Assembly: GCF_016097555.1 (NCBI RefSeq)
Contig: NC_054703.1
Span: 14,092,205-14,156,204 of the forward strand
DNA length: 64,000 nucleotides
DNA from: Gigantopelta aegis
Taxonomy: Eukaryota > Mollusca > Gastropoda > Neomphalida > Peltospiridae
Direction of reading: 5' to 3'
In this document: one piece after another, positions 3,031 to 63,572 of the stretch
How the letters are laid out: each line of letters begins with the position of its first letter
Numbering within the stretch: the first letter of the stretch is position 1
Made by a program: the position numbers and the translations under genes
The notes under the pieces: generated by a model
Told to the model about the DNA's origin: nothing
Databases searched by the model: none
The model's input: the letters and a program-made list of their open reading frames with translations, nothing else

Positions 3031-4411
3031 ATGTTTCCAATTAGTAAGTCTGTGGCTATTTTCCTGATGGTTACAAATGTGATGCTGTTCTCTGTCGTGG
3101 TGTATAAAACATCACAGCTGTACACGAAACCGCACTCTACCATCTTCAGTAACTCGGAGATCTGTCACAAGGCCACGTGTATACCAGGAGAGACGTGCTG
3201 TGACGTCACTGCAACCAACAAAACCGTCAATGGTTCTTTCTATTGTTGTTACCATGACTACGGGGAACGTGTTCGTAGTATTATGCTAAAGGTAGGCATA
3301 TGCTATCATAAGCATTACAAATTATATTATACGTTATCTATTCTTTTAAATCTTTTAGTAGTGTGCACGTATAAGCATTTATTTTCACTCCACAATTGAG
3401 AACATTTCCGTCTCAGTATTTTGCTATATGGCCGCATCTGGCTGTAATACCGGTCCGAACAGGTCTTTCTGGAACCCATTCACAAGTGCCGTCTCTTCCG
3501 CTATACACCCATGTCCCAAAAGGTCAATGCAAAATATTACAAAATAAAATGGGCAAATTCCAGCCTGAAGCCTTACCTTTGAAAAAGGCTTCTTTTTTTA
3601 ATTGTTGCCCAATTACTAGAAATGAATATGTGAACCACATCATATGTCATATTTAGGAACTATAGTGGACCGTGATCAATGAACTTTCACCCGGAGGTGA
3701 ATTGTGTAGTGAGACCTATATATATAGATATATATACATACACACACACAGTCAAACCTGTCTTAGCAGCCACCTGTACTCAGCGGTCACCTGCCTTAAG
3801 CGGCCACCTTTTTCCCTCCCAAACGATTTATAATGTAAATGCACCTGTAATAAGCAGTCACCTGTCTAACGCGGCCAGCGGAACCTAAATCGGATCCCAA
3901 ATTGCTAAAACACCTGTATTAAGCGGCCACAATAAAGTTTTACTATTATATAAAGACGGTATTTTAACAACAGCGATAAGGTGCAGCAAATAACCGATCT
4001 TCACACCTTCAGGAATACTAGTACCCATTCAGTCCCGACATCTCAACTGTGTATCAATTAAGAAAGTATGACTCTGGCCTGCTTGACATTTGTAGGTTCA
4101 TTTACTATGACAATACACCGAATGAAGTAGGAATTAAATAATTAAATGGAAAAAGAAAACAAACTTGTTGAGAACGGTTAATTTAATACATTCCATTTGC
4201 ATTATTTCTGAAAGAGACGACATGTCAACAGTTGATTTATAGTCAACTGTGAAACACGCATCCGTTGATTAGCAGTACAAACGGTAAAACAAGAAACAAC
4301 AACACATGTTTTAAAGACTATATAATATGTGGCAACCTGTACTCAGCGGCCACCTGTCTTAAGCGGCCACTTTTATCTACTCCCTTGTGTGACCGCTTAA
4401 GACAGGTTTGA

Positions 4412-4501
<90 letters not shown>

Positions 4502-7256
4502 TGTAGTTATATTTCCTGTAGTAACGTAAATATTGCTACAAGTTACTATGTCGCGTAAACACAACTCACAACCTACACAAGTTTCATTAGGAATCGAAGA
4601 TAAATGAAAATGATATATTCAGTTTACAACTACAACAATAAATATTACTCACCAGATGCATGTTAAAGTCTGTAATTCGACAATCCATATGGACAATTAT
4701 GTTACAAACTTCTTACATCATTAAAAAGAATCATGCAACTCGGCTGTTTAAAAAAACAAAAAACAATCATAAATGCTTTTACATTCTGAAGTCGTCTGTC
4801 CGTTCACGTTTAATTGTTCTGTTGTTTTCTCTTCTTCATCTTTTTTTTCATATTCTTCTTCTTGTTAACATTGTTCTTCTTCTTCTAATTATTATTATCG
4901 TTGTTAATATTTAGCGAATAAAATTCAGTTTAGATTATGAATAATAGAAATTTCAAATTAAATAATTACGAAATTAGACGGCATTTCCTCGGTTTCTCTC
5001 CAATTCAACCAATCGGATATCAGCATTTTGATCGTCTTAATCGTGAAGACACCCCAAAAAGCCGTCTTAATAACAAGTTACATGACCAAAATTACTTCGA
5101 CCTAATTGGCCAGACATCATCGTCAAGAGCTGTACGAATGACGTCAAAACAATTGGCGCGAACACGCAATGACGCTTGCCCCGCCCATATCAAGTAATGA
5201 ACCTACGAAATGCCGTCTAAATCGGTTAGAAGGCTTAAAGGGACATACCCTAGTTTTTAAACACTAAGGCATATTTTTGACTATTATAGCCGTTTTTGAT
5301 ACTTTACTTAGATTTTATGGTTTAGGTTGTCAATTTCCGTACATTCGAAGTGTTTTTGGTCATCCTGGTGTTTTTAATATCACAAAAATCCTTTCTCGTA
5401 TTTTTAAAAACGCACGTGCGTCTGAGATGTAACAGTTATGGAGTCGAGATTTAGTCTATTTTTAGATCGTATTTCACCATTTCAAAATTACAAACTCATG
5501 TTTCTCTCAATTGTAACTTTATCCAAATGTGTTATAGGTTTGTAGATTAACTAAACTTAGTGTTAATTTTCACGGGTTGAAACTAGGGTCTGTTCCTTTA
5601 AGACGTTTCTTCAGAAATAAGAACGGCTCAGCCTCTTCTTTTTTCTGAAGAAACGTCTTAATGCCTTCTAACCTATACTTAGGAAAGTAAAACAGGGTAT
5701 TTATTTGTTAAACGTAGGGATCATTTGCTGTTTTGCAAGTACATTTTTATAAGGTTTCTAGCAAATATGTTGTGCGTTATTTAATCTTGTCTATGCCAAA
5801 ATCATAAAGAGTTTTTGCTGCAGATTCAAAGGACACATTAGAACAAACGTCACAGTTATAAGGTTTTAACAAACCACAGTTCGTAATAAATCTGATGAGG
5901 TGTCGTTTTTACATTCCTTTTTTTTCCCCCACGTCATGAGAAAACGTTTGTGCAATACGTATTTCGAACTTCCCATACTAGATGACAGATATATATTTAT
6001 TTGTAATTATTATTTTTCAGCAACTGGATCAAAATTATGAAAGAGATATCAGAAATGGTACGTTCTATCAAGTTCGCCCGCACGCACGCACGTACGCACA
6101 CATACAATTTCAAAGACGCGTACACGCACACGCACACACACACACACACACACACAGAGAGCTATACATACATACACATGCACATGGCACACACACATAC
6201 ACACAGAGATACATACATACATACATACACAGACATAAAGACATACAAACATATATACACATACATACAAATAGACACAAACACACAGACATACATAGAC
6301 ATATATGGGGGTGGGGGTGGGGGTGGGGGAAGAGTAAATAGAGAGACAGCGTGTGTTAGGTGTTGTTATTTTAGAAAATGTATTTTGAACACGAATTACA
6401 TTTACGTTCATGTTATTTCAGACTACCATCTCCAGAGGGTGAGGAAAGTTGCTGCTGTTGTAAACGAAGACAAAACTCAACAGAAACCCGCTGCCCATCT
6501 GCAGATGGACCCTGATGCACAGTATGACAAAGGTGAGATTTATACAAATACAACGTAGTCTCGGTCGCTTTCAGACTGTTGTCACAACAACAATGTTGAT
6601 ACATTCGGTATAAAAGCATAAGGCTCTTGTTTGAGTTGACCCTACCTTTAACTAGTTACGTACAAGGTAAACAACGAAGTGATCTTTAAAAAATACTAAT
6701 TGGTGTAGAAATATAGGCAACAAGGTGGCATGGATTTACTACTCTGTAAAACGGTAAAGTTATCAAATAAAACGCTTCACTTCATTCCTGAAATCATCTA
6801 AATATATAATTTAATAATACTGGGTGTTTTTTGTTGTTGTTTTTTCCAGATAAACCTATCTCAGCTCTACGGTGGAAATCAAATGGGAAGAGATCGTTTG
6901 TGAAAGACGGACTCACTGTCGTTGAGGAAGGGATTCGGGTGGAGAAAGAAGGGAACTATTTCATCTACAGCAACGTCGTGTTTTACGGTAACCAGACTAA
7001 GGAACTCGATGTCCCCAAACTTTATCATCTCGTGTACAAACGCGTTCCCACGACACCAAGGTCTACAGTCCAACAGCTGTCGTCCAACCCCCAGTCGACT
7101 TGTAAAATCCGACGAGGAAAGCCCGCCTTCGCGACATCCTACATCGGCGCTGTCTACCACCTGGAGGCCGGGGCCACGGTGATGGTGAAGACGTCGTCGG
7201 TGGAGAGACTAGTCAAACAGCCACAGTCGACGTACTTCGGAATTTACATGATTTAA
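3031..7256 (+). CDS. TNF-superfamily ligand, copy A (four exons)
   Basis: Exons are 3031-3291, 6021-6057, 6422-6532 and 6850-7256. All introns are GT-AG and the phases join cleanly (0, 1, 1) to give 271 residues. Residues 1-7 are a short cytosolic tail, about 8-27 a hydrophobic signal anchor, and 44-75 a stalk with cysteines spaced C-x4-C-x5-CC-x14-CC and two N-glycosylation sequons. A TNF homology domain covers about 121-271: it opens with KPAAHLQ, has the W-x5-SF and EGNYFIYSNVVFY strands, and closes with STYFGIYMI. This architecture marks a type II membrane TNF ligand, expected to trimerise and bind a TNF receptor at the cell surface. The start follows a possible acceptor (TCTTGACAG) 19 bases upstream, so a 5' UTR exon may exist. 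The individual TNF subfamily cannot be assigned. Confidence 0.9.
3749..4414. mobile_element. MITE with pogo/Tigger-like inverted repeats
   Basis: The ends are CAGTCAAACCTGTCTTA and, inverted, TAAGACAGGTTTGACTG. Inside, the phrase AAGCGGCCACCT recurs near both ends. There is no coding capacity. The element sits in intron 1 of TNF copy A and is absent from the matching place in copy B near 23040-23075, so it entered after the duplication or was lost from B. The pogo-like label rests only on the CAGT termini. Confidence 0.7.
4415..4493. repeat. (TA)n microsatellite
   Basis: Pure TA dinucleotides directly follow the MITE end. They could be expanded target sequence. Confidence 0.95.
5597..5662. 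repeat. Long hairpin in TNF-A intron 1
   Basis: TTAAGACGTTTCTTCAGAAA is followed about 25 bases later by its reverse complement, TTCTGAAGAAACGTCTTAA, giving a stem of about 19 bp. The corresponding part of copy B is deleted. Confidence 0.75.
6075..6331. repeat. (CA)n / (CATA)n tract with a GGGGGT run
   Basis: Mixed CA, CATA and ACACAG repeats fill intron 2 of TNF-A, ending in GGGGGTGGGGGTGGGGG. Open frames of up to 173 codons here are artefacts of simple repeats. One of them includes real exon 3 by read-through. Confidence 0.9.
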
Positions 7257-10962: not shown

Positions 10963-11048
10963 GCTGATCTAAACGTGGTCCGCGGTTTTCAGTCGTCCCG
11001 GTATGTCCTTCTTTATGTCCACTTTTAATGTTCTTTCACCCGTTCTGA

Positions 11049-11261
11049 TAGCCCGAGTACTCTGACTGTAAGAGAGCTAGACGGACATTTGGACATAAAT
11101 ACGCTCTCATTACAGTCAGAACGATAGCCCGAGTACTCTGACTGTAAGAGAGCTAGACGGACATTTGGACATAAATACGCTCTCATTACAGTCAGAGACC
11201 AAGCTATGTATTTTTTTGGCAATTCCCGACAACCAAAAAGTTGGCAAAGATTTCCGCCCTT
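11049..11261 (+). repeat. Head-to-tail dimer of a MULE-like MITE end
   Basis: TAGCCCGAGTACTCTGAC starts at 11049 and again at 11125, a 76-bp period. Each unit is itself a hairpin (CTCTGACTGTAAGAGAG against CTCTCATTACAGTCAGA). The second unit continues into GAGACCAAGCTATGT and a small hairpin around TTGGCAAAGATTTCCGCC, exactly as in the MITE at 42428-42860. It is read as a duplicated transposon end that abuts the LINE at 11262. Confidence 0.8.
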
Positions 11262-20521: not shown

Positions 20522-23500
20522 ATGTTTCCAATTAGTAAGTCTGTGGTCATTGTCCTGACGGTTCCAAATGTGATGCTGCTCTCTGTCGTGGTGTATAAAA
20601 CATCACAGCTGTACACGGAACTGGACTCTACCATCTTCAGTAACTCGGAGATCTGTCACAAGGTCACGTGTATACCAGGAGAGACATGCTGTGACGTCAC
20701 TGCAACCAAAAAAACCGTCAATGGTTCTTTGTATTGTTGTTACCATGACTACGAGGAACGTGTTCGTAGTATTATGCTAGAGGTAGGCATATGCTGTCAT
20801 AGACAGATTACAAATTATATTATACGTTATCTATTCGTTTAAATGTTTTAGTAGTGTCAGTGGCGGATCCAGAAAATCCAGGGGGGTGGGGGGGGGGGTG
20901 TGCAGTGACATGAGGTGGAATGCCAAGGGAACGTTGGGGGAGGTTTAGAGGGGGATTGTAAAAACAAATCAAAAATTAATATATAATAAAATTATAACTA
21001 TCGCAAAATTTGGGAAGTTGGGTAACGGCGGGCCCCTGCCCTCCTCCCTCCTAGATCCGCCTCTGAGTGTGCACGTATAAGCATTTATTTATTTTCACTC
21101 CAAAATTCAGAACATTTCCGTCTCAGTGTTTTGCTATATGGCCGCATCTGGCTGTAGTACCGGTCCGAACAGGTCTTTCTGGAACCCATTCACAACAATC
21201 TGATTAAAATTAGCTCTACTGGTTTCACCAGTAGATCTAACAGCATTGCGTGGACACCCATGTCTAGGTGACTGCCACGGGGATCCTATAATACCCGTAA
21301 CTGAATGAAACACGATTGTCCAAATATCTCTCCTAACTGTATATCTATTAGATCTCTCTGTAACAGGCAGTTATACCCGCTTTGGCTCGTCTAGGTATGA
21401 TCAGAGATAAGATCTTATATAAAGTATATATTATTATAGCACGTTTAGTTCACTAGAAAACACAACAAAAACACAATACACTTTGGAATCTGTATTAACC
21501 TACGCTGACAAATGTACTGCCGCAGTAGTTAATTAACAACAACAAATAATAACAACCCAGAACTGATCACTTAATTAGTTAATCTCTAGGTGTCTAGTTT
21601 ACGCAATATGCTAATCACTTCACCGTGACACAACACCCACACGTGTGATAATTGAGAAACGCTTCTAGGGGAACTTAAGTAATAAAGGAATTACAACTCT
21701 ATTCCTAACTGGTTAATTTTTAATTAACCCTTACTACTCGTTCCGTAACGTGTGATAATTGAGAAACGCTTCTAGGGGAACTTAAGTAATAAAGGAATTA
21801 CAACTCTATTCCTAACTGGTTAATTTTTAATTAACCCTTAACTACTCATTCAGTAACCTTGTAACACAGAATTAATACTGGTACCTATCACAATAAAGAC
21901 AATAACCTACAGTTTACCTAGGTCCTCTAGGATGACTGGCTAAGCTTTATATTACCAAATACTCGTATAATGTTAGAACAATAAGTCTACGATTTACTTC
22001 GTCAGATGACCGAAGACACTGTCTAAAGAATATTGGTATAATACAGTATTAAATTTTTAAAGTCACATCAATCACATCAAGGTTATACAACAGAGCAGAA
22101 ATAATATATTTACCAAAGTCCCGTCTGAACTAATATAGATCGTTCAGTTGGACAACGACCGTTCCCCTGGATGCCTTCCTATGTCTCTCCTCGATATCTC
22201 TAAAACCCTAGCTATTTATTAAAAAATCCGAATATCGCCTGGGGGTACAAGGCGGCACCGAATCTTATCATGTGGATTTCCACCACGACCACGCCGGCAT
22301 ATTTTTCTCAGATGTTCAGACTCAATGTCGCCTAGTCACCAAAATCACGGTTGTAAAAACCGCACTCGCGGAGGTATTACGTAACTACTTGCCACATAGC
22401 CTCCGCATCTGCGCTGGGTGTGTATTAGAAAATCTCGACGACCGTCGCGCAAAGGTATCACGTAACAAGTTGCCCACCTGGGCTAAGTGCAATTGGAACT
22501 GCGCACGGCCCTCTAACACAATTAATATCGCCACAGGCGAAAACAAAATTAAGAGCATGTTCCGTCACAGTGACATTTCATCTATAAATAACAATTTAAA
22601 TATCGACCAATTACACTTCGCCTTTTATAGCGTTATTCGGGAGCATACAAATTCTAAAAATATCGGACGAGACTATTCTTTTCAAACCACTGGCATGATT
22701 TTGCAAGTAAGGTTTTGATTGGTCGAATGAAAGGTCAACTGGACATGAGTTCCAACGGGCTGGTGTTAGATCAACATGTAACAGTGGAGCTAAGTTTAAT
22801 TAGATTGCATTCACAACTGCCGTCTCTTCCGCTATACACTCATATCCCAAAAGGTTAATGCAAAATATTACAAAATAACATGGGCAAAATCCAGCCTGAA
22901 GGCTTACCATTGAAAAATGAATTTTTTTAAATTGTTGCCCAATTACTAGAAATGTGAACCACAACATACATCATATTTAGGAACTATGGTTGACCGTGAT
23001 CAATGAACTTTCACCCGGAAGTGAATTGTGTAGTGAGACCTATATATATATATATCTACAATACATCAATACATAATAATAATATTTATATATTGTAGTT
23101 ATATTTTCTGTAGTAACGTAAAGATTGCTACAAATTACTATGCCGCGTAAACACAAGTCAAAACCTACAGACGTTTTATTAGGAATCGAAGATAAATGAA
23201 AATGATATATTCAGTTTACAGTTACAACAATAAATGTTACTCACCAGATGCATGTTAAAGTCTGTAATTCGACAATCCATATGGACAATTATGTTACAAA
23301 CTTCGAACATCATTAAAAGGAATCATGCGACTCGGCTATTTAAAAAACCAAAACCAATGATGAAGCCTTGGGCAGTCTGAAGTCGTCGGTCCGTTCACGT
23401 TTAATTGTTCTGTTGTTTTCTTTTCTTCATCTTTTTCTTCATATTCTTCTTCTTCTTAACATTGTTCTTCTTCTTCTAATTATTCAGGGCTTCTAGAATT

Positions 23501-24668
23501 TAAAAAAAAAAATTCACTAGCCATGAGATCGGTGATTTTTAAAATTTACTGGCCACAATTAAAATTCACAAGCCCTACTTTACTAAATACAATTTTACTA
23601 ATAGTAATAATCAATATGTTAGCTAAAGATGGAGATAGCGATTAAAAACACTAAGATTTGGGTGGGTGTTTGGGGGCTGGATATTCATATTTACAAAATA
23701 GACTCAAATACAGCATTTGACAAACAAAATTCACTAGCCGTCGGACATGGCAATAGTAGTTATTTACTAGCCCAACATTGAATATCACTAGCCATGGGAG
23801 TGGGGCTACCATAATCTAGAAGCCCTGAATTATTATTATCGTTGTTAATATTTAGCCAATAAAATTCGGTTTAGATTATGAATAATAGAAATTAGACGGC
23901 ATTTCCTCGGTTTCTCTCCAATTCAATCAATCGGATATCAGCATTTCCATCGTCTTAATCGTGAAGACACACCAAAAAGCCGTCTTAATAACAAGTCACG
24001 TGACCAAAATTACTTTGATACAATTGACCAGACATCATCGCCAAGAGCTGTACGAATTAGCGCAAACACGCATTGACGCTTGCCCTGCCCATATCAAGTA
24101 ATGAACGTATAAAATGCCGTCTAAATCGGTTAGAAGGTTTAAAGGGATATACCCTAGTTTCTAACCTATACTTCGAACTTCCTATACTAGATGACAGTTA
24201 TATATTTATTTTTAATTATTATTTTTCAGCAACTGGACCAAAATTATGAAAGAGATATCAAAAATGGTACGTCCCATCAAGTTCGCGTGCGTACGCACGC
24301 ACACACATACATTCACGCACATACACATACATTCAAAGACACACGCACACACACACGCGCTCACACACACTGTGAAACATTTCTATCAATCTTTTTCATT
24401 CTGTTGATCACACAGTTGTTATTGTTTTGTTTTTAGTCATTTTTATTGTTTGAATTTGCGATTTACTGATTAAACAAACGCCAACTTTCAAATTTCACTT
24501 CTGACTCCAATTGCCCGTCAAGATATTTAGTGGTCATAAAACCTACTGTAATACTGAACTACCGGTTGTAATGTTTGCCCAGTTCATTCCCCACAGCTAA
24601 TATACTTTACAATTTTGGCAATTGTAAATTCTTATTAGAGTTACCCTACTTTTTAAAGAGTATATATA

Positions 24669-24722
<54 letters not shown>

Positions 24723-27700
24723 AATCACCCTTTCTCACCAATGTTGCCCAATTTAAGAAAATTATTGTCGCCATCGACTAGCCATTCTAAATATTGTTTT
24801 AGGATAACAAGTTATCATTTACTAAAAGCTATAAACCAGTACTAACGTCGACAATCAGAAACAGATTGGGTTCTTTAAAAAAACAAATCCCAATTTATCT
24901 ATCGAAAGGAGTAATTTCGCGAATTTTACGTTGTCGCTTGGACAACATGCAAAATTAATACAGTCGTAACATAATATTTGCAACAGCTATTGCAATACAT
25001 ATGCGTTGCTAAGATTCTGTAATATTCAATAGTATTCATGTGAAAATTTTAAATAAATGTATTTTCACACAAAAAAGTTCTAGTATTTTGAACATTGTCG
25101 CCCAAATTCGAGTAATCTACGTTACATTTTCATTTGTTAATTCACTATGCTAATATAACGACGGAAAAACGTGACACATTCATACTTCAGAGCTCTAACA
25201 TCACCGAATCGATGACAAATACACTTGTTACATTTAATTCAAATTATTGTCTCCATATTGCAAAACAGTGTGTAATTTTGAAGAGTTGTGTTAAGCATGT
25301 AATCTACGTGACCGCCTATATCGTACAAATGTATAGCGCCAACCACCCACAGGTTTGTGTACGCAATGCAGTGATACCAAGTAATCTAAATGAACCATAT
25401 ATCTACATGTTACATTATTTTAATGTATTACTGGGAGTGTAGAAGCACTTGAAGTAATTTACGTGATGTAATCAACGTTACCAGTAAATGTTAACATTTT
25501 TATTAACACGACAGTTTGCCGTTTAATATGAAAGCTGGTATTTGGATGTACGACTATATTGAATCACACTAAACGTAGTAGTCTCCCTTGCCAAAAACAC
25601 GTGTTTCCTGTGGAGAAAATATTTGCAAGTGACGAAATTTGAAAGCTGATATTAATCAGATGCATCGCACAAATTGTTCAAGATCTTGGACCAAATAAGG
25701 TAAGTCAGTGAATAAATGTAATCTTTCTTAATAATTTAATATATTTATTTTAACACAACCGTACGTTTGTGTGAAATTGTACTATAATGGTTCAACATAG
25801 GCTATCGTTTCCGAGTTTGTTCTTTTTTCTATTCATGATTATAACCGATTAGTCGTAAATAACAGACCAAAGACATTACCTTCGAAATTTTGACTTGATG
25901 ATTTGAAAATAGTGTCAGACATAATTGCAGGCAGACAATTACTTTGAATATTACTAAATATGTGTGCAATGTATAGGTAACGTAGATTACATATATATTC
26001 TAAGTGTACTAAAATAATGTAGTCTTGGAATAAAATGTAATTGTTAGTTGACAAAAATCATATTACTAACAGTTGGCCTTAAGAACCAATGTATAGATAT
26101 TAACTAACTGTTGAATTTGTCAGTGTGTAGTACTTGTTTCAATGGTAACGTAGATTACATATGTTGGTAACGTAGATTACTGTAAAGGACTTTTTTATTT
26201 TCAGGATGGGAAAATCAAGGGCAGAGATTCAGAGAGACTATAGACAGAGAAAATTGGAAAAGGAAGGTGACGGTTATCTAAAAAAGGAAAGAGAGAGAGT
26301 ACAAACGTATTATGTACCTATAACGGAAAGAACAACAAAAGATGCAAGAGAGAGGAGAGAGAAGGTCAGAACATGGGTAACAAAACACAGGAAACGATTA
26401 AAGGATGCTGAAAAGAACATTTCTGAAGGTGGTTCTAGTCCGTATATCAATGTGGATGTTATTCAGGAGGACGAGATCTCTTCAAGTACAGACCCAGCAA
26501 AGGCCAGACCATCCTTAATTGTTAAACTGCCATTTTCTGATAAAAAGCAGAGGACAAGGAAAAGAATAAGTCGTGCCACAGCCAAATCAAGAAGGCGCAT
26601 CAATGTTCTTACATCACTTAACAATAACTTGATTAAAAAATATAAATGCGTATCGAAGAGATACGAGAGACTAGTTAAAAAGCAAAAAAATGCATCTGCC
26701 ATTGTAAGTGTAAATTCCCACCCAAATGAACCAGAAATGCAAACTCCTAAAAAAAGAGTTGTGGCAGAACTTCGTAAACATGGGATGAGTCCAAGGACTG
26801 TCCCAAAAAGCATCACCAAGAAGTTGATTTTAGCAAATGTTATTGGTGAAGAAATTAAACAAGCTCGAATATCAAATGGATATAAAGGAAATCAACTGGT
26901 TAAAAGGGTTGTATGTGGTGCAATAATAAAGAAATATCGTTTGCAAAATTATCTTGGAAACATGACAGGTTTTAGCCGTAAACGATTTTCAAAACAAAGC
27001 AAGGAGTGTAAAAGAATTCCCCATATCACAAGATTACTTCAGCAACGCCAATGCCTTCAGAAAACGTTGACAACTTTTCTGGAAAGAGATGACAATAGTA
27101 GAGTGATGCCAGGAAAGAATGACACGAAAACAGTACATAAGGAAAAGAAACAGAAAAGAGTTTTGAATGACAACTGTTCATATCTGTACCTCAAATTTAT
27201 GTCAGAGAATACAGTGAAGATGTCACTAGCAACCTTCTGCAGGATGCGACCGAAACATATCATCCTAACACAATACATTTCTCGAAACAAATGTCTTTGT
27301 CAAAGACACCAAAACATGGCATTATTATTGAAATCTATGAAATCTTCAGGTTGTAATGTGCCTCTCAGTCCTGATGAATATGGACGCAAGCTGAAGGATC
27401 AATCACCTGTAGATTTTCTGAAAGAACTGAACAGGGAGAAGATTGTTTATGGAAAATGGAAGAAGGTGGATATGCCAGATGGAAGGAAGAGGACAAGAAT
27501 TGTAGAAGAAGAAATAGAGAAAGAACAATTTAGTAAACTTGTCTCAGAACAATCATGCGAGTTCTTGGCACATGCATCAAGGGTCAAGGACCAATATAAA
27601 GCCATTTCAGATCTGAAAAACAATTTGCCGAAAAACCACGTTCTTGTTCAAATGGATTTTGCCGAAAATTATAGCTGTAGGTCTCCAGATGAAGTGCAAA

Positions 27701-30700
27701 GTACATACTGGAATAGTGTTGCTGTAACTTTGCATCCCGTGGTTGTCTATTTCAAGACAACTCCTGAAGATGGCCTGAAACACAAAAGCTACGTGTTTAC
27801 CTCGGATGGCTTGGGACACAATATAGGGACAGTGTATGCTATCCTGAAGAAGCTAGTTCCTAATATACAAGCGGATTTCGGGCCCATAGATTGGATACAT
27901 TACTGGACGGACAGCCCATCCTCTCAGTATAGAAATAAAACAGCATTTTATATTGTCTCAGATCATAAATGCTTGATGGGTGTCCCTGCAACATGGAATT
28001 ATTTTGAAAGTGGACATGGGAAGGGACCATGCGATGGTGTCGGGGGCACTGCCAAACACATGGCTGATTTATCAGTAAAGCAAGGCAAAATGAGAATTGA
28101 AAGTGCAAGAGAGTTTTACACATGGGGACAGAAGTATCACCATAGTGCTAAGTACATCTTCGTCAGTGCAGAAGAATGTGAAAAAGCTCGTTCAGAAATT
28201 ACAGAATTCAATAAAATCCTAGTTCCTGTTAAAGGTACACTCCTACTGCATGTTGTGGTGCCTGTCAGTCGTGGAGTTGTAAAAACTCGAGTTGTTTCCT
28301 GCTATTGTGCACAATGTTTGGAAGGAAAGTATCATGCCGATTGGACTGTCACAACTGTACATGGTAAACACCAACTGCCTCCACCGGTTAATCCCGAGAA
28401 GACAGACCAACTGCCTGCAGATCTTACTCCTGAATGCTCTATTACAGCTGACGTTCCTCCACCCGGTACGTCCTCTGAAAATTCAATTGGAGCCGGTGAT
28501 CTCTCTGAGGATATGTGGATTGCCTCAATATATAACAACGATTGGCACATTGGATGCGTGAAACAGATTGATGCAGATGATAAAGATTGTCTGGTTACCT
28601 TCATGAGACGTGAATCTTCGAGGCTAACCCAAAAACCAACTTTCAAATGGCCTAGTTCCTCGGATGAATTATGGATAAAGTTTGAAGACATCATCTGCGA
28701 AATAAATACACCAGAGCCGAAAGGGTGCAGCAAAAGAAGTTTCGAGATCACAGTTGATGAGGCTACGCGAATTTCTGAAGCGTTCAAAATTAGGATGAAA
28801 AAAAAATGAAATGAAATGAAATCTACGTTACTGTTGCTTTCTTACAAGCATTACCGTTCAATTAACGTTACATTCAAAGTTAGTTTAGTATTTTGTTCGA
28901 TATATTGTGCTTCATATTATTTTAATAAGAATCCAATGATACATTGCAGTGCACATTTTAAAGTTCATATTTCTGATGACAACATTCTACTTTATACCTT
29001 TTATGTACAGATTATTAAAAAACCCTAAGTTATTTAACTACTCTGAACATGTGACTACATGACAATAGAAAAAACAAACAAATAACTGAATGGTTTAATT
29101 AATGAAATATGTTCATGTTCATTGTTTACTATTCACATTGTGTGTTTTGTAATCTATTTATTTTTATGTATTTTTTGTAATTTACGTTACATAATTATCA
29201 ATCAGACTTGGTTACACAATTGGACAATGATCTTTTTGGTCTTTGGCTGTGATTGAGTACTTTTTCTAGCAAATACGATGATACACCAAATGCAGTTTCC
29301 AAGTAATCAAGTTTTTTGGCATGAGATACATTAAAGATGTATCATTGTAATTAGTAGTGAACAGACTTTAAAATTATCTTTAACACATAGATAGTTTATG
29401 TTACTTGATCAAATGCCTTATTGTGTTTAACTAATCAAAATCTATGAAATAACAATAAACAAGTGGAGTATGTCTGATTATATTGTGAATGACTGGGGAT
29501 AACAGTTACATCAGATAATACCATTGACTGAGGTCACGTAGCTTACCTATAACAGTTTGTAGTGTTGTCGTAGAAGATGTAGAACTTTGAACTTTTTTAG
29601 TTCCGAGTTCTGAAATTTCAGATTTTTACCCTCTCAGTATTGCTCTTTTAATAAAATATGTTTTTATAAACATTCTAATGTTTTCCATTTTCATAATTTT
29701 GAGCTGTCAATTTGGGCAATATTGGTGAGAAATGGTGAAATACATTCACACACGTACACACACAAACGCACAGGTACACAGAGAAACATAGACACAAATA
29801 CACACGCTGAGAGAGTGTGCTGGGTGTTGTTATTTTACAAAATGTATGTTGCCAAGTATTACACTTAGTTCGTAATGTTATTTCAGACTACCATCTTCAG
29901 AGGGTGAGGAAAGTTGCTGTTGTTCTAAAGGTATCATAGAACACGTATTACACTTAGTTCGTAATGTTATTTCAGACTACCAGCTCCAGAGGGTGAGGAA
30001 CGTTGCTGCTGTTGTAAAGGTATCATAGAACACGTATTGCACTTAGTTCGTAATGTTATTTCAGACTACCAGCTCCAGAGGGTGAGGAAAGTTGCTGCTG
30101 TTGTAAACGTATTATAGACCACGTATTACACTTAGTTCGTAATGTTATTTCAGACTACCAGCTCCAGAGGGTGAGGAAAGTTGCTGCTGTTGTAAAGGTA
30201 TCATAGACCACGTATTACACTTAGTTCGTAATGTTATTTCAGACTACCAGCTCCAGAGGGTGAGGAAAGTTGCTGCTGTTGTAAAGGTATCATAGAACAC
30301 GTATTACACTTAGTTCGTAATGTTATTTCAGACTACCAGCTCCAGAGGGTGAGGAAAGTTGCTGCTGTTGTAAACGTATTATAGACCACGTATTACACTT
30401 AGTTCGTAATGTTATTTCAGACTACCAGCTCCAGAGGGTGAGGAAAGTTGCTGCTGTTGTAAAGGTATCATAGAACACGTATTACACTTAGTTCGTAATG
30501 TTATTTCAGACTACCAGCTCCAGAGGGTGAGGAAAGTTGCTGCTGTTGTAAACGTATTATAAACCACGTATTACACTTAGTTCGTAATGTTATTTCAGAC
30601 TACCAGCTCCAGAGGGTGAGGAAAGTTGCTGCTGTTGTAAAGGTATCATAGACCACGTATTACACTTAGTTCGTAATGTTATTTCAGACTACCAGCTCCA

Positions 30701-32713
30701 GAGGGTGAGGAAAGTTGCTGCTGTTGTAAAGGTATTATAGACCACGTATTACACTTAGTTCGTAATGTTATTTCAGACTACCAGCTCCAGAGGGTGAGGA
30801 AAGTTGCTGCTGTTGTAAACGTATTATAGACCACGTATTACACTTAGTTCGTAATGTTATTTCAGACTACCAGCTCCAGAGGGTGAGGAAAGTTGCTGTT
30901 GTTGTAAACGTATTATAGACCACGTATTACACTTAGTTCGTAATGTTATTTCAGACTACCAGCTCCAGAGGGTGAGGAAAGTTGCTGCTGTTGTAAAGAT
31001 ATTATAGACCACGTATTACACTTAGTTCGTAATGTTATTTCAGACTACCAGCTCCAGAGGGTGAGGAAAGTTGCTGCTGTTGTAAACGTATTATAGACCA
31101 CGTATTACACTTAGTTCGTAATGTTATTTCAGACTACCAGCTCCAGAGGGTGAGGAAAGTTGCTGCTGTTGTAAACGTATTATAGACCACGTATTACACT
31201 TAGTTCGTAATGTTATTTCAGACTACCATCTGCAGAGGGTGAGGAAAGTTGCTGTTGTTGTAAACGTATTATAGACCACGTATTACACTTAGTTCGTAAT
31301 GTTATTTCAGACTACCAGCTCCAGAGGGTGAGGAAAGTTGCTGCTGTTGTAAAGGTATCATAGACCACGTATTACACTTAGTTCGTAATGTTATTTCAGA
31401 CTACCAGCTCCAGAGGGTGAGGAAAGTTGCTGCTGTTGTAAAGGTATTATAGACCACGTATTACACTTAGTTCGTAATGTTATTTCAGACTACCAGCTCC
31501 AGAGGGTGAGGAAAGTTGCTGCTGTTGTAAACGTATTATAGACCACGTATTACACTTAGTTCGTAATGTTATTTCAGACTACCATCTCCAGAGGGTGAGG
31601 AAAGTTGCTGTTGTTGTAAACGTATTATAGACCACGTATTACACTTAGTTCGTAATGTTATTTCAGACTACCATCTCCAGAGGGTGAGGAAAGTTGCTGC
31701 TGTTGTAAACGTATTATAGACCACGTATTACACTTAGTTCGTAATGTTATTTCAGACTACCATCTCCAGAAGGTGAGGAAAGTTGCTGCTGTTGTAAAGG
31801 TATTATAGACCACGTATTACACTTAGTTCGTAATGTTATTTCAGACTACCATCTCCTGAGGGTGACGAAAGTTGCTGTTGTTGTAAACGTATTATAGACC
31901 ACGTATTACACTTAGTCCGTAATGTTATTTCAGATGACCATCTCCAGAGGGTGAGGAAAGTTGCTGCTGTTGTAAACGAAGACAAAACTCAACAGAAACC
32001 CGCTGCTCATCTTCAGATGGACCTTGATGCACGGTATGACAAGGGTGAGATTTAAAACAAATACAACGTAGTCTCGGTCGCTTTCAAACTGTTGTCATAA
32101 CAAGATTCTTGTTACGTTCTATATAAAAGTCTGCAATAATTAGTTACGAACAACGTAAACAAACGAAATACAGGCAACAAGGTGGTCAATGCGCATGGAT
32201 CTACTACTCCGTGCAGCGGTAAAGTTATCAAATAAAAGGCTTCACTTCATTCCTGAAATCCCCTATATATATAATTTAATAATACTGGGTTGGTTTTTTT
32301 TTCCAGATAAACATATCCCAGCTGTCCGGTGGAAATCAAATGGGAAGAGATCGTTTGTGAAAGACGGACTCACTGTCGTTGAGGAAGGGATTCGGGTGGA
32401 GAAAGAAGGGAACTATTTCATCTACAGCAATGTCGTGTTTTACGGTAACCAGACTAAGGAACTCGATTTCGCCAGACTTTGTCATTACCTGTACAAACGC
32501 GTCCCCACGATACGAAGGTCTAAAGTCCAACAGCTGTCGTCCAACCCCCAGTCGACGTGTAAAATTCGACGAGGAAAGCCCGCCTTCGCGACATCCTACA
32601 TCGGTGCTGTCTACCATCTGGAGGCCGGGGCCACGGTGATGGTGAAGACGTCGTCGGTGGATAGACTTGTCAAACAGCCACAGTCGACGTACTTCGGAAT
32701 GTACATGATTTAA
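20522..32713 (+). CDS. TNF-superfamily ligand, copy B (four exons, expanded introns)
   Basis: Exons are 20522-20782, 24230-24266, 31934-32044 and 32307-32713. They have the same lengths and phases as copy A (261, 37, 111, 407 nt) and again give 271 residues with no stop. Signal anchor, six-cysteine stalk and TNF homology domain are kept (KPAAHLQ, EGNYFIYSNVVFY, STYFGMYMI), so the gene looks coding-competent. Two oddities stand out. Intron 2 holds a 5-kb transposon, followed by 23 extra tandem copies of the exon 3 acceptor and exon start, so only the last acceptor gives a full exon 3. Also, residues 191-209 differ from copy A at 9 of 19 positions, while the remainder of exon 4 differs at 5. 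Expression and splicing cannot be judged from DNA. Confidence 0.82.
20858..21065. mobile_element. MITE with CAGTGGCGGATC ends
   Basis: Ends CAGTGGCGGATCCAG and CTAGATCCGCCTCTG are inverted, flanked by AGTGT at 20853-20857 and 21066-21070. The empty site is intact in copy A (TAGTAGTGTGCACG near 3357). The CAG...CTG ends resemble hAT-type MITEs, but only 5 bp of the target duplication can be seen, so the family is left open. Confidence 0.8.
21196..22807. mobile_element. MULE-like non-autonomous element, 1.6 kb
   Basis: Inverted ends of about 80 bp start CAATCTGATTAAAATTAGC on the left and CAATCTAATTAAACTTAGC on the right (reverse complement). A 9-bp target duplication, CATTCACAA, lies at 21187-21195 and 22808-22816, and copy A has it once. 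Long inverted repeats with a 9-bp duplication are typical of Mutator-like elements. Inside, a ~100-bp segment around 21640-21845 is directly repeated. A 148-codon frame at 22272-22718 matches no transposase and part of it is shared, as DNA, with the element at 35502-36059. Confidence 0.85.
23485..23827. mobile_element. MITE with CAGGGCTTCTAG ends, copy 1
   Basis: Ends CAGGGCTTCTAGA and TCTAGAAGCCCTG are perfect inverted repeats, flanked by AATTATT on both sides. Copy A has the empty site near 4885. The interior repeats ACTAGCC words. A second member lies at 45209-45534. Confidence 0.85.
24669..24720. repeat. (CA)n microsatellite
   Basis: An uninterrupted CA repeat in TNF-B intron 2, ending just before the 5-kb transposon. 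Confidence 0.95.
24725..24753. repeat. Left terminal inverted repeat of the 5-kb transposon
   Basis: Matches 29709-29738 in reverse complement with three or four mismatches over about 29 bp. The word TTGCCCAATTTAAGAAAATT just inside it also occurs, nearly unchanged, at 34350-34372, which suggests a relative elsewhere. Confidence 0.8.
25701..26204 (+). other. Putative 5' UTR intron of the transposase gene
   Basis: AATAAG|GTAAGTCAG at 25700/25701 is a near-consensus donor, and TTTTTTATTTTCAG|GATG at 26204 a near-consensus acceptor one base before the start codon. Three of the subterminal GTAACGTAGATTAC motifs lie inside this interval. Confidence 0.45.
26206..28809 (+). CDS. Transposase-like protein, 867 aa, unnamed DDE family
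   Basis: A single uninterrupted frame. Residues 1-80 are very basic and helical (IQRDYRQRKLEKEG), and a basic region follows to about 200. A Cys/His segment (NKCLCQRHQN) lies near 363-372. The presumed catalytic core has D484 in QMDFAENY, D569 in YWTDSPSSQYRNK and E601 in NYFESGHGKGPCDGVGG, a D-84-D-31-E spacing that suits an RNase H-fold transposase. A cysteine pair (CYCAQC) and a C-terminal domain of about 100 residues (EDMWIASIY to KWPSSSDELWIKFEDI) close the protein. I recall similar intronless proteins, annotated as uncharacterised, in fish and invertebrates, but cannot name a superfamily. ATG follows a good acceptor (TTTTATTTTCAG), and a strong donor (AAG|GTAAGT) lies at 25700, suggesting a 5' UTR intron. 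Confidence 0.85.
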   Translation: MGKSRAEIQRDYRQRKLEKEGDGYLKKERERVQTYYVPITERTTKDARERREKVRTWVTKHRKRLKDAEKNISEGGSSPYINVDVIQEDEISSSTDPAKARPSLIVKLPFSDKKQRTRKRISRATAKSRRRINVLTSLNNNLIKKYKCVSKRYERLVKKQKNASAIVSVNSHPNEPEMQTPKKRVVAELRKHGMSPRTVPKSITKKLILANVIGEEIKQARISNGYKGNQLVKRVVCGAIIKKYRLQNYLGNMTGFSRKRFSKQSKECKRIPHITRLLQQRQCLQKTLTTFLERDDNSRVMPGKNDTKTVHKEKKQKRVLNDNCSYLYLKFMSENTVKMSLATFCRMRPKHIILTQYISRNKCLCQRHQNMALLLKSMKSSGCNVPLSPDEYGRKLKDQSPVDFLKELNREKIVYGKWKKVDMPDGRKRTRIVEEEIEKEQFSKLVSEQSCEFLAHASRVKDQYKAISDLKNNLPKNHVLVQMDFAENYSCRSPDEVQSTYWNSVAVTLHPVVVYFKTTPEDGLKHKSYVFTSDGLGHNIGTVYAILKKLVPNIQADFGPIDWIHYWTDSPSSQYRNKTAFYIVSDHKCLMGVPATWNYFESGHGKGPCDGVGGTAKHMADLSVKQGKMRIESAREFYTWGQKYHHSAKYIFVSAEECEKARSEITEFNKILVPVKGTLLLHVVVPVSRGVVKTRVVSCYCAQCLEGKYHADWTVTTVHGKHQLPPPVNPEKTDQLPADLTPECSITADVPPPGTSSENSIGAGDLSEDMWIASIYNNDWHIGCVKQIDADDKDCLVTFMRRESSRLTQKPTFKWPSSSDELWIKFEDIICEINTPEPKGCSKRSFEITVDEATRISEAFKIRMKKK
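29709..29738. repeat. Right terminal inverted repeat of the 5-kb transposon
   Basis: AATTTGGGCAATATTGGTGA followed by GAAATGGTGA, the inverted partner of the left end. Confidence 0.8.
29850..31933 (+). repeat. 89-bp array of the TNF exon 3 splice acceptor and exon start
   Basis: The acceptor TTATTTCAG followed by ACTACCAGCTCCAGAG recurs every 89 bp from 29886 to 31933: 24 acceptors in exact register, the last one belonging to the real exon 3. Each unit holds about 40 bp of the end of intron 2 and the first 40-44 bp of exon 3, up to GCTGTTGTAAA, then jumps back into intron sequence (GTATTATAG or GGTATCATAG). Copy A has one acceptor only. Read in the exon frame each extra unit soon meets a TAG, so upstream acceptors would give a truncated product unless the unit is spliced out again. 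Units are almost identical, so the array is recent or homogenised. Confidence 0.95.
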
Positions 32714-32960: not shown

Positions 32961-33049
32961 AGCAGGTCATCTTTTGTGTACATTTTCCCCAGACAGGACA
33001 GCACATACCACGGTCTTTGATATACCAGCCGTGGAAGCTAAACCGCCAG

Positions 33050-33830
33050 TGGAACAATGAACCCTGGTAGTGGCTGCAGTGTTCACCGTTTGTGTTCTTC
33101 TGATAACCTATAGTGTAACAATGAACACTGGTAGTGGCCGCAGTGTTCACCGTTAGTTTTCTTCTGATAACCGATAGTGCAGCAATGAACACTGGTAGTG
33201 GCCGCAGTGGTCACCGTTAGTTTTCTTCTGATAACCGATAGTGCAACAGTAAACACTGGTAGTGGCCGCAGTGTTCACCGTTAGTGTTCTTCTAATAACC
33301 GATAGTGCAACAGTGAACACTGGTAGTGGCCGCAGTGTTCACCGTTTGTGTTCTCATAACCGATAGTGCAACAATGAACACTGGTAGTGGCCGCAGTGTT
33401 CACCGTTAGTGTTCTTCTGATAACCGATAGTGCAACAATGAACACTTGTTAGTGGCCGCAGTGTTCACCGTTAGTGTTCTTCTGATAACCGATAGTGCAA
33501 CAATGAACACTGTTAGTGGCCGCAGTGTTCACCGTTAGTGTTCTTCTGATAACCGATAGTGCAACAATGAACACTGGTAGTGGCTGCACTGTTCACCGTT
33601 AGTGTTCTAATAACCGATAGTGTACCAATGAACACTGGTAGTGGCTGCACTGGTCACCGTTAGTGTTCTTCTAATAACCTATAGTGTACCAATGAACACT
33701 GGTAGTGGCTGCAGTGTTCACCGTTAGTGTTCTTCTAATAACCGACAGTGCAGCAGTGAACACTGGTAGTGGCCGCAGTGGTCACCGTTAGTTTTCTTCT
33801 AATAACCGATAGTATAACAATTCGAACACC
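33050..33830. repeat. 64-bp minisatellite, about 12 units
   Basis: GTAGTGGCCGCAGTGTTCAC recurs at a 64-bp spacing (33067, 33131, 33195 and onward), with some units shortened. Unit text alternates GTGTTCACCG and GTGGTCACCG. No coding content is seen. Confidence 0.92.

Positions 33831-41601: not shown

Positions 41602-63572
<21,971 letters not shown>

Follow-up and report, generated by a model that had tools for sequence, protein, structure and literature searches.

Tandem decoy copies of the exon 3 boundary in TNF-family genes of Gigantopelta aegis

The 64-kb window of Gigantopelta aegis DNA considered here (that is, the whole stretch analyzed) contains a TNF-family gene, TNF-B, in which the true exon 3 is preceded by 23 tandem copies of its own acceptor and exon start. 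This array belongs to a family-wide decoy-exon system that is structurally able to divert splicing; the original prediction had described one gene, and the feature extends across the family. We consider it probable that a founder duplication of the boundary was followed by expansion of the unit and its spread among paralogues, with likely partial diversion of transcripts to a stub lacking the TNF domain. The main rival to this reading is an inert, tolerated array.

Structure and splice signals of the TNF-B array

Both TNF-family genes of the window, TNF-A and TNF-B, lie on the + strand and comprise four coding exons encoding 271 residues (Table 1). The host gene carries the TNF domain that characterizes ligands of the TNF superfamily, and comparison with the PDB placed lymphotoxin-alpha first for the paralogue P0001. 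Exon 1 of TNF-A and TNF-B encodes a Cys-rich stretch (C..C..CC..CC) between the hydrophobic segment and the TNF domain; this stretch gave no Pfam match above the cut-off.

Table 1. Positions in the 64-kb window of the TNF exons, the decoy array and the transposon-like stretch.
Feature	Position	Strand	Remarks
TNF-A exons	3031-3291, 6021-6057, 6422-6532, 6850-7256	+	Exon 3 (6422-6532) has one acceptor
TNF-B exon 1 (coding)	20522..20782	+	Hydrophobic segment and Cys-rich stretch
TNF-B exon 2	24230..24266	+	37 nt; donor ATG|GTACGT
Transposon-like stretch in TNF-B intron 2	24725..29738	+	About 5 kb; 30-bp inverted ends (90%)
23 tandem 89-bp decoy units	29852..31933	+	Decoy exons start at 29887+89k, k=0..22
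First +17 donor, AGG|GTGAGG	29904..29905	+	GT at 29904+89k; true exon 3 has AGG|GTGAGG too
In-frame stop from first decoy acceptor	29937..29939	+	Recurs every 89 bp
TNF-B true exon 3 (24th acceptor)	31934..32044	+	111 nt; donor AGG|GTGAGA
TNF-B exon 4	32307..32713	+	TNF domain and stop; Pfam TNF PF00229, 9.6e-21

Tandem Repeats Finder reported the array as 89 bp × 23.9 copies (29852-31978; 96% matches, 0% indels). Exon starts follow the sequence TTATTTCAG at 29887+89k (k=0..23), with all 23 intervals exactly 89, and the window's + strand contains 25 instances of TTATTTCAG, at the 24 array acceptors and at the one acceptor of TNF-A. Each TNF-B unit combines approximately 45 nt from the end of intron 2 with 44 nt from the start of exon 3. 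Repeat finding and motif positions thus bear out the original prediction of 24 acceptors in exact 89-bp register before exon 3, of which 23 are decoys; the proposed origin of the units from the exon 3 boundary also holds, as does the claim that only the last acceptor opens a full exon, which belongs to an intact 271-aa TNF gene.

In 22 of the 24 units the 33 bases around the acceptor are identical (the exceptions being one decoy and the true exon), while 16 distinct unit sequences are present among the 24. With its head-to-tail units in the range of ~10-100 bp and their high identity, the TNF-B array has the form of a minisatellite. Its acceptors are spaced by 89 nt, in contrast to NAGNAG tandem acceptors, in which the AGs are 3 nt apart, and its donor lies 17 nt past the acceptor, unlike the abutting AG|GT of a recursive-splicing ratchet point. 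The unit is not unusual in predicted RNA structure, as folding (z 0.95 and 2.12) was less stable than that of shuffled sequences.

Reading frames entering the TNF-B decoys end 50 nt in. An early TAG had been expected in every decoy; an early stop is indeed present in 23/23, as TAG in 22 and as TAA in copy 8. AAG|GTATCA and AAC|GTATTA had been named as the donors through which decoys could act as mini-exons, and at +44 there is AAG|GT in ten of the 23 decoys and AAC|GT in 12, with the GT lost in copy 13. However, a stronger donor at +17, present in 22/23 decoys, had been overlooked: AGG|GTGAGG scores 4.63 versus 0.64 for AAG|GTATCA, according to a human-type matrix. The +17 donor reads AGG|GTGAGG in 21 TNF-B decoys and AAG|GTGAGG in one; copy 23 has GTGACG. 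Across the window, 38 of 4109 GTs score at least 4.63 with the human-type matrix, and 23 of these 38 are the internal ones of the array and of exon 3.

An acceptor combined with the donor of the next unit would define a pseudoexon of 106 nt, close in size to the true exon 3 (111 nt); this spacing, with an intact donor, is found in 22 of the 23 neighboring TNF-B pairs. The decoys have two attributes of a poison exon in their sequence, namely an acceptor and a donor around an exon of normal size, and a premature stop upon inclusion: when four of the 106-nt pseudoexons were placed in the TNF-B mRNA, all ended after residue 116. We infer that part of the transcripts would likely enter a decoy and yield a truncated product that lacks the TNF domain, with splicing to the last acceptor giving full-length TNF.

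Decoy loci across the TNF family

The whole 1.149-Gb genome was searched with the 89-bp unit (the published G. aegis genome is given as 1.15 Gb; PMC7895826). There were 91 matches at 15 places, all on the contigs labelled C1 and C5, and the exon 1 peptide had 14 genome matches. The window itself occupies 14092205-14156204 of C5; the 13 places beyond it (L010-L022) were retrieved, making 15 together with TNF-A and TNF-B. All 15 carry TNF exons or their remains, and a dispersed transposon was rejected as the source of the arrays on this ground. Bacterial and archaeal genomes gave a single weak match (29%), to the TNF domain, on a Paraclostridium ghonii contig (L001:5001-5261), and viral contigs gave none.

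Counting every unit except the last of a locus as a decoy, we found 76 decoys in 10 of the 15 TNF places, totals that may be low, as only the best candidates were scored and the annotated relative P0003 was left unplaced, with no match to the gene models of the fetched loci. The longest arrays are those of TNF-B (23 decoys), L022 (19), L018 and L021 (9 each), and L013 (5); shorter ones occur in L010 and L016 (3 each), L019 and L020 (2 each), and L017 (1). TNF-A, L011, L012, L014, and L015 have none, although L015 is a broken locus scored as array-free, in which a single acceptor runs to an early stop. TNF-A, with its one acceptor, had been put forward as the natural comparison for TNF-B; it serves as such, but alongside the other TNF places of the genome rather than as the sole one.

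The splice signals are conserved throughout these decoys. The acceptor AG and the GT at +18/+19 are present in 76/76, and the donor is exactly AGG|GTGAGG in 71, the remaining five being AAG|GTGAGG, AGG|GTGACG, GGG|GTGAGG, and TGG|GTGAGG (twice). Every decoy frame reaches a stop within 36 codons: after 17 codons in 70 decoys, 16 in two, 23 in three, and 36 in the first unit of L020. The donor of exon 3 itself is more variable, and on the human-type matrix it scores 4.30 in TNF-B, 3.95 in L019, L021, and L022, 2.98 in L011, and 6.51 in L010, L012, L013, L014, L016, and TNF-A (AAG|GTGAGA in L010, L013, and L016). By the same matrix, the decoy donor exceeds the exon 3 donor where intact genes have 23, 19, or 9 decoys, a point in favor of diversion, and falls below it in L010, L013, and L016, a point against.

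The signal of selection on these sites is weak, and strong selection on decoy splice sites was set aside: sparing of the acceptor core gave a scan-corrected P of 0.042 in one array, and there were 0.53 extra states per column in the acceptor versus 0.77 in other intron columns, and 0.44 in the donor 9-mer versus 0.80 in the next exon columns.

Use or tolerance of the decoys

Five of eight annotated G. aegis proteins (P0001, P0002, P0004, P0005, and P0093) are exact translations of fetched loci. Of these, P0093 was returned, as the one protein, by a protein search with the predicted 116-aa product of exons 1 and 2 plus a decoy as query (two candidates). P0093 is a database prediction, the uncharacterized protein LOC121385771 isoform X2, with a length of 116 aa and the C-terminus ...RVRKVAAVVNVL. 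It is identical (116/116) to the translation of L018 exons 1 and 2 joined to whichever of decoys 3-9 is chosen, whereas decoys 1 and 2 of that locus encode differing residues. Decoy acceptors thus appear able to work, and the diversion of splicing that had been suggested for TNF-B is supported by a paralogue with a decoy isoform in its annotation. However, the last unit of L018 no longer continues into a regular exon 3, and exon 4 was not found in the 14.2 kb examined, so that P0093 does not show a decoy prevailing over an intact exon 3.

The reading that competes most closely with diversion, and which we regard as possible though not probable, is that of a tolerated intronic repeat, in which the exon 3 donor, through exon definition, would select the acceptor closest to it (the last one), leaving the decoys almost unused. 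The annotated products of two other loci are consistent with this: P0005, from L021 with nine decoys, and P0004, from L019 with two, are both annotated full length via the last acceptor. For TNF-B, the database of 90% cluster representatives yielded neither a full-length protein identical to TNF-B nor a short one, which says little, because only such representatives were included. The abundance of other minisatellites in the window also favors this reading. Against an inert array stand the TNF-B decoy acceptors, which are nearly identical to the true acceptor, the decoy donors, 22 of 23 of which score at least as high as the donor of exon 3 (human-type matrix) and lie at normal exon spacing, and the decoy isoform annotated for L018.

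Gene integrity bears on the same question. TNF-B, L022, and L021 retain full open frames with 23, 19, and 9 decoys, respectively, in agreement with the earlier alternative of a tolerated decoy array. Altogether nine genes have a full frame, four of them with 0 decoys and the others with 2, 3, 9, 19, and 23. These frames indicate that the arrays are tolerated, either because decoys are mostly skipped or because a lower output is acceptable, and that most splicing may reach the last acceptor. A full gene is lacking in one of five loci with at least five decoys (L018), in three of five with 1-3 (L016, L017, and L020), and in one of five with none (L015); long arrays are therefore not tied to gene breakage in this small sample of 15 loci, which also favors inertness. 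L013 was taken as open, since exons 1-3 are open and P0007, which is close but not identical, is annotated, although exon 4 breaks off in the simple model. L016 has GC instead of GT at the exon 1 donor, and its exon 4 was not found in the fetched stretch. As for the other incomplete loci, exon 1 of L017 is disrupted by one TAG, and this locus corresponds to P0006, whose annotation begins only inside exon 3; L020 has a partial exon 1, and its exon 4 was not found; in L015, exon 3 is disrupted and neither exon 1 nor exon 4 was found.

Pairwise dN/dS among the nine intact genes ranged from 0.34 to 1.25 (36 pairs). TNF-B against its eight intact paralogues gave 0.63-1.25, including the two highest values of all pairs (1.25 and 1.15); its other six values were 0.63-0.87, and pairs without TNF-B gave 0.34-0.97. 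TNF-A and TNF-B differ at 31 residues, of which 13 are private to TNF-B and five to TNF-A. Relaxed constraint in TNF-B was nevertheless dropped, given that six of its eight dN/dS values are within the range of the rest, and a loss of constraint is not clearly evident in this gene.

Beyond partial diversion, a stronger version can be formulated in which a poison-exon cassette, born once and spread by gene conversion, would act as a mobile copy-number dial, the number of repeats setting the amount of full-length TNF from each paralogue and the remainder being released in the form of a membrane stub devoid of the TNF domain; we consider this doubtful. Far less credible is intron gain in progress, whereby each unit would represent a 72-nt intron plus a 17-nt microexon, and three microexons (or multiples) would add 17-residue stalk blocks without a stop. 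The arithmetic suits this idea, in that the +17 donor of 22/23 TNF-B decoys is followed by the next acceptor 72 nt on, and the frame remains open through exon 4 with 3, 6, 9, or 12 microexons and is closed with the other numbers from 1 to 12. Yet the insert is absent in all six relatives that span the exon 2/3 junction, P0093 reads through the +17 donor, and 17-nt exons are generally poorly recognized. Its precedent is an intron gained in potato RdRp (PMC4974935).

Origin, known counterparts and neighboring elements

According to the explanation that we prefer, partial diversion from a duplicated boundary, the junction of intron 2 with exon 3 in a TNF gene would have undergone tandem duplication, most likely a single time, and the resulting 89-bp unit would then have expanded to up to 23 decoy exons and likely passed between paralogues via recombination. 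The segment concerned crosses the intron-exon boundary, as in intron gain by boundary duplication, and the repeat junction GTAAAC|GTATTATAG would fit a duplication between an intronic AAAAG (as in L019) and an exonic AAACG. The unique sequence that precedes the first unit is AGTATTATAGACCACGTATTACA in L013 and L019, the same as in the array interior, whereas this flank in TNF-A, L010, L011, L012, L016, and L017 is AAAATG(T/G)ATTTTGA(A/C)CACG. Three loci, L010, L016, and L017, combine their own flank at the first unit with the other intron type in subsequent units, a pattern that suggests import of units through recombination with a paralogue. Decoy-free genes occur in both halves of the tree. 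The sequences look as if decoys and true exons had exchanged sequence. Exon nt +2/+3 (codon Y/D/N) are the most variable decoy positions in the window (29888-31936), and they vary also in the true exon 3 of paralogues.

Array length evidently changes fast, since L021 and L022 are near-identical (dS 0.01 in exon 4 and 0.026 over the whole frame) and have nine and 19 decoys, respectively; such a difference in length between close copies is a further property of minisatellites. Although exact copy numbers derive from the assembly and not from reads, extra copies added by the assembler are extremely improbable as the source of the arrays, considering the 16 distinct units among 24, the differing arrays with private variants at ten loci, and the decoy tail at the end of an annotated protein.

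The closest counterpart is the potato RdRp gene, in which one intron-exon boundary duplication created a new intron, with 106 RNA reads as confirmation (PMC4974935). As described there, the end of an intron and the start of an exon were duplicated, such that acceptor, branch region, and exon start were inherited and a latent exon donor was exposed; the snail TNF genes share this arrangement but have up to 23 extra copies, at ten loci, with a stop in each decoy. The decoys also resemble the decoy exons reported to promote intron retention, in that intronic sites could engage the spliceosome unproductively, and differ from these in copying the start of the downstream exon. Minisatellites (VNTRs) share the head-to-tail order, private variants, and differing lengths between close copies, but the TNF unit straddles a splice junction and is present at the corresponding position of ten paralogous loci. 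Known poison exons are usually single cassettes. Like these and like pseudoexons, the TNF decoys are extra exons with usable-looking sites and a premature stop; unlike poison exons, they form tandem arrays derived from the boundary of the true exon itself, in numbers that vary between paralogues.

Judged by titles and the beginnings of abstracts, the literature search yielded no paper on such an array. For the genome papers of G. aegis, the term "TNF" is absent from the main text of one (PMC7895826), and the other reports TNF signaling as an enriched pathway (PMC7736800). With their 0 to 23 near-identical, competing decoys, the 15 closely related TNF loci constitute a natural dose series for acceptor choice, which bears on first-come selection versus exon definition among many equal acceptors. 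Should the decoys be used, array length would provide a rapidly changing means of tuning a cytokine family in a host with two intracellular symbionts; should they be ignored, the arrays would demonstrate the strength of exon definition in protecting the last acceptor.

Separate from the array, the transposon-like insert lengthens intron 2 of TNF-B far beyond that of TNF-A. It contains an open 867-aa frame (26206-28806) that has no Pfam match and 85 relatives at 26-52% identity, including proteins of mussels, clams, a sea cucumber, and an amphioxus. Just 3' of TNF-B there is a 64-bp unit in 12 copies (33041-33821), and the tandem-repeat list has no such array 3' of TNF-A. Elsewhere in the window, a 92-bp unit present in 30 copies (55357-58122) shares a core with a 76-bp unit present in two (11047-11196).
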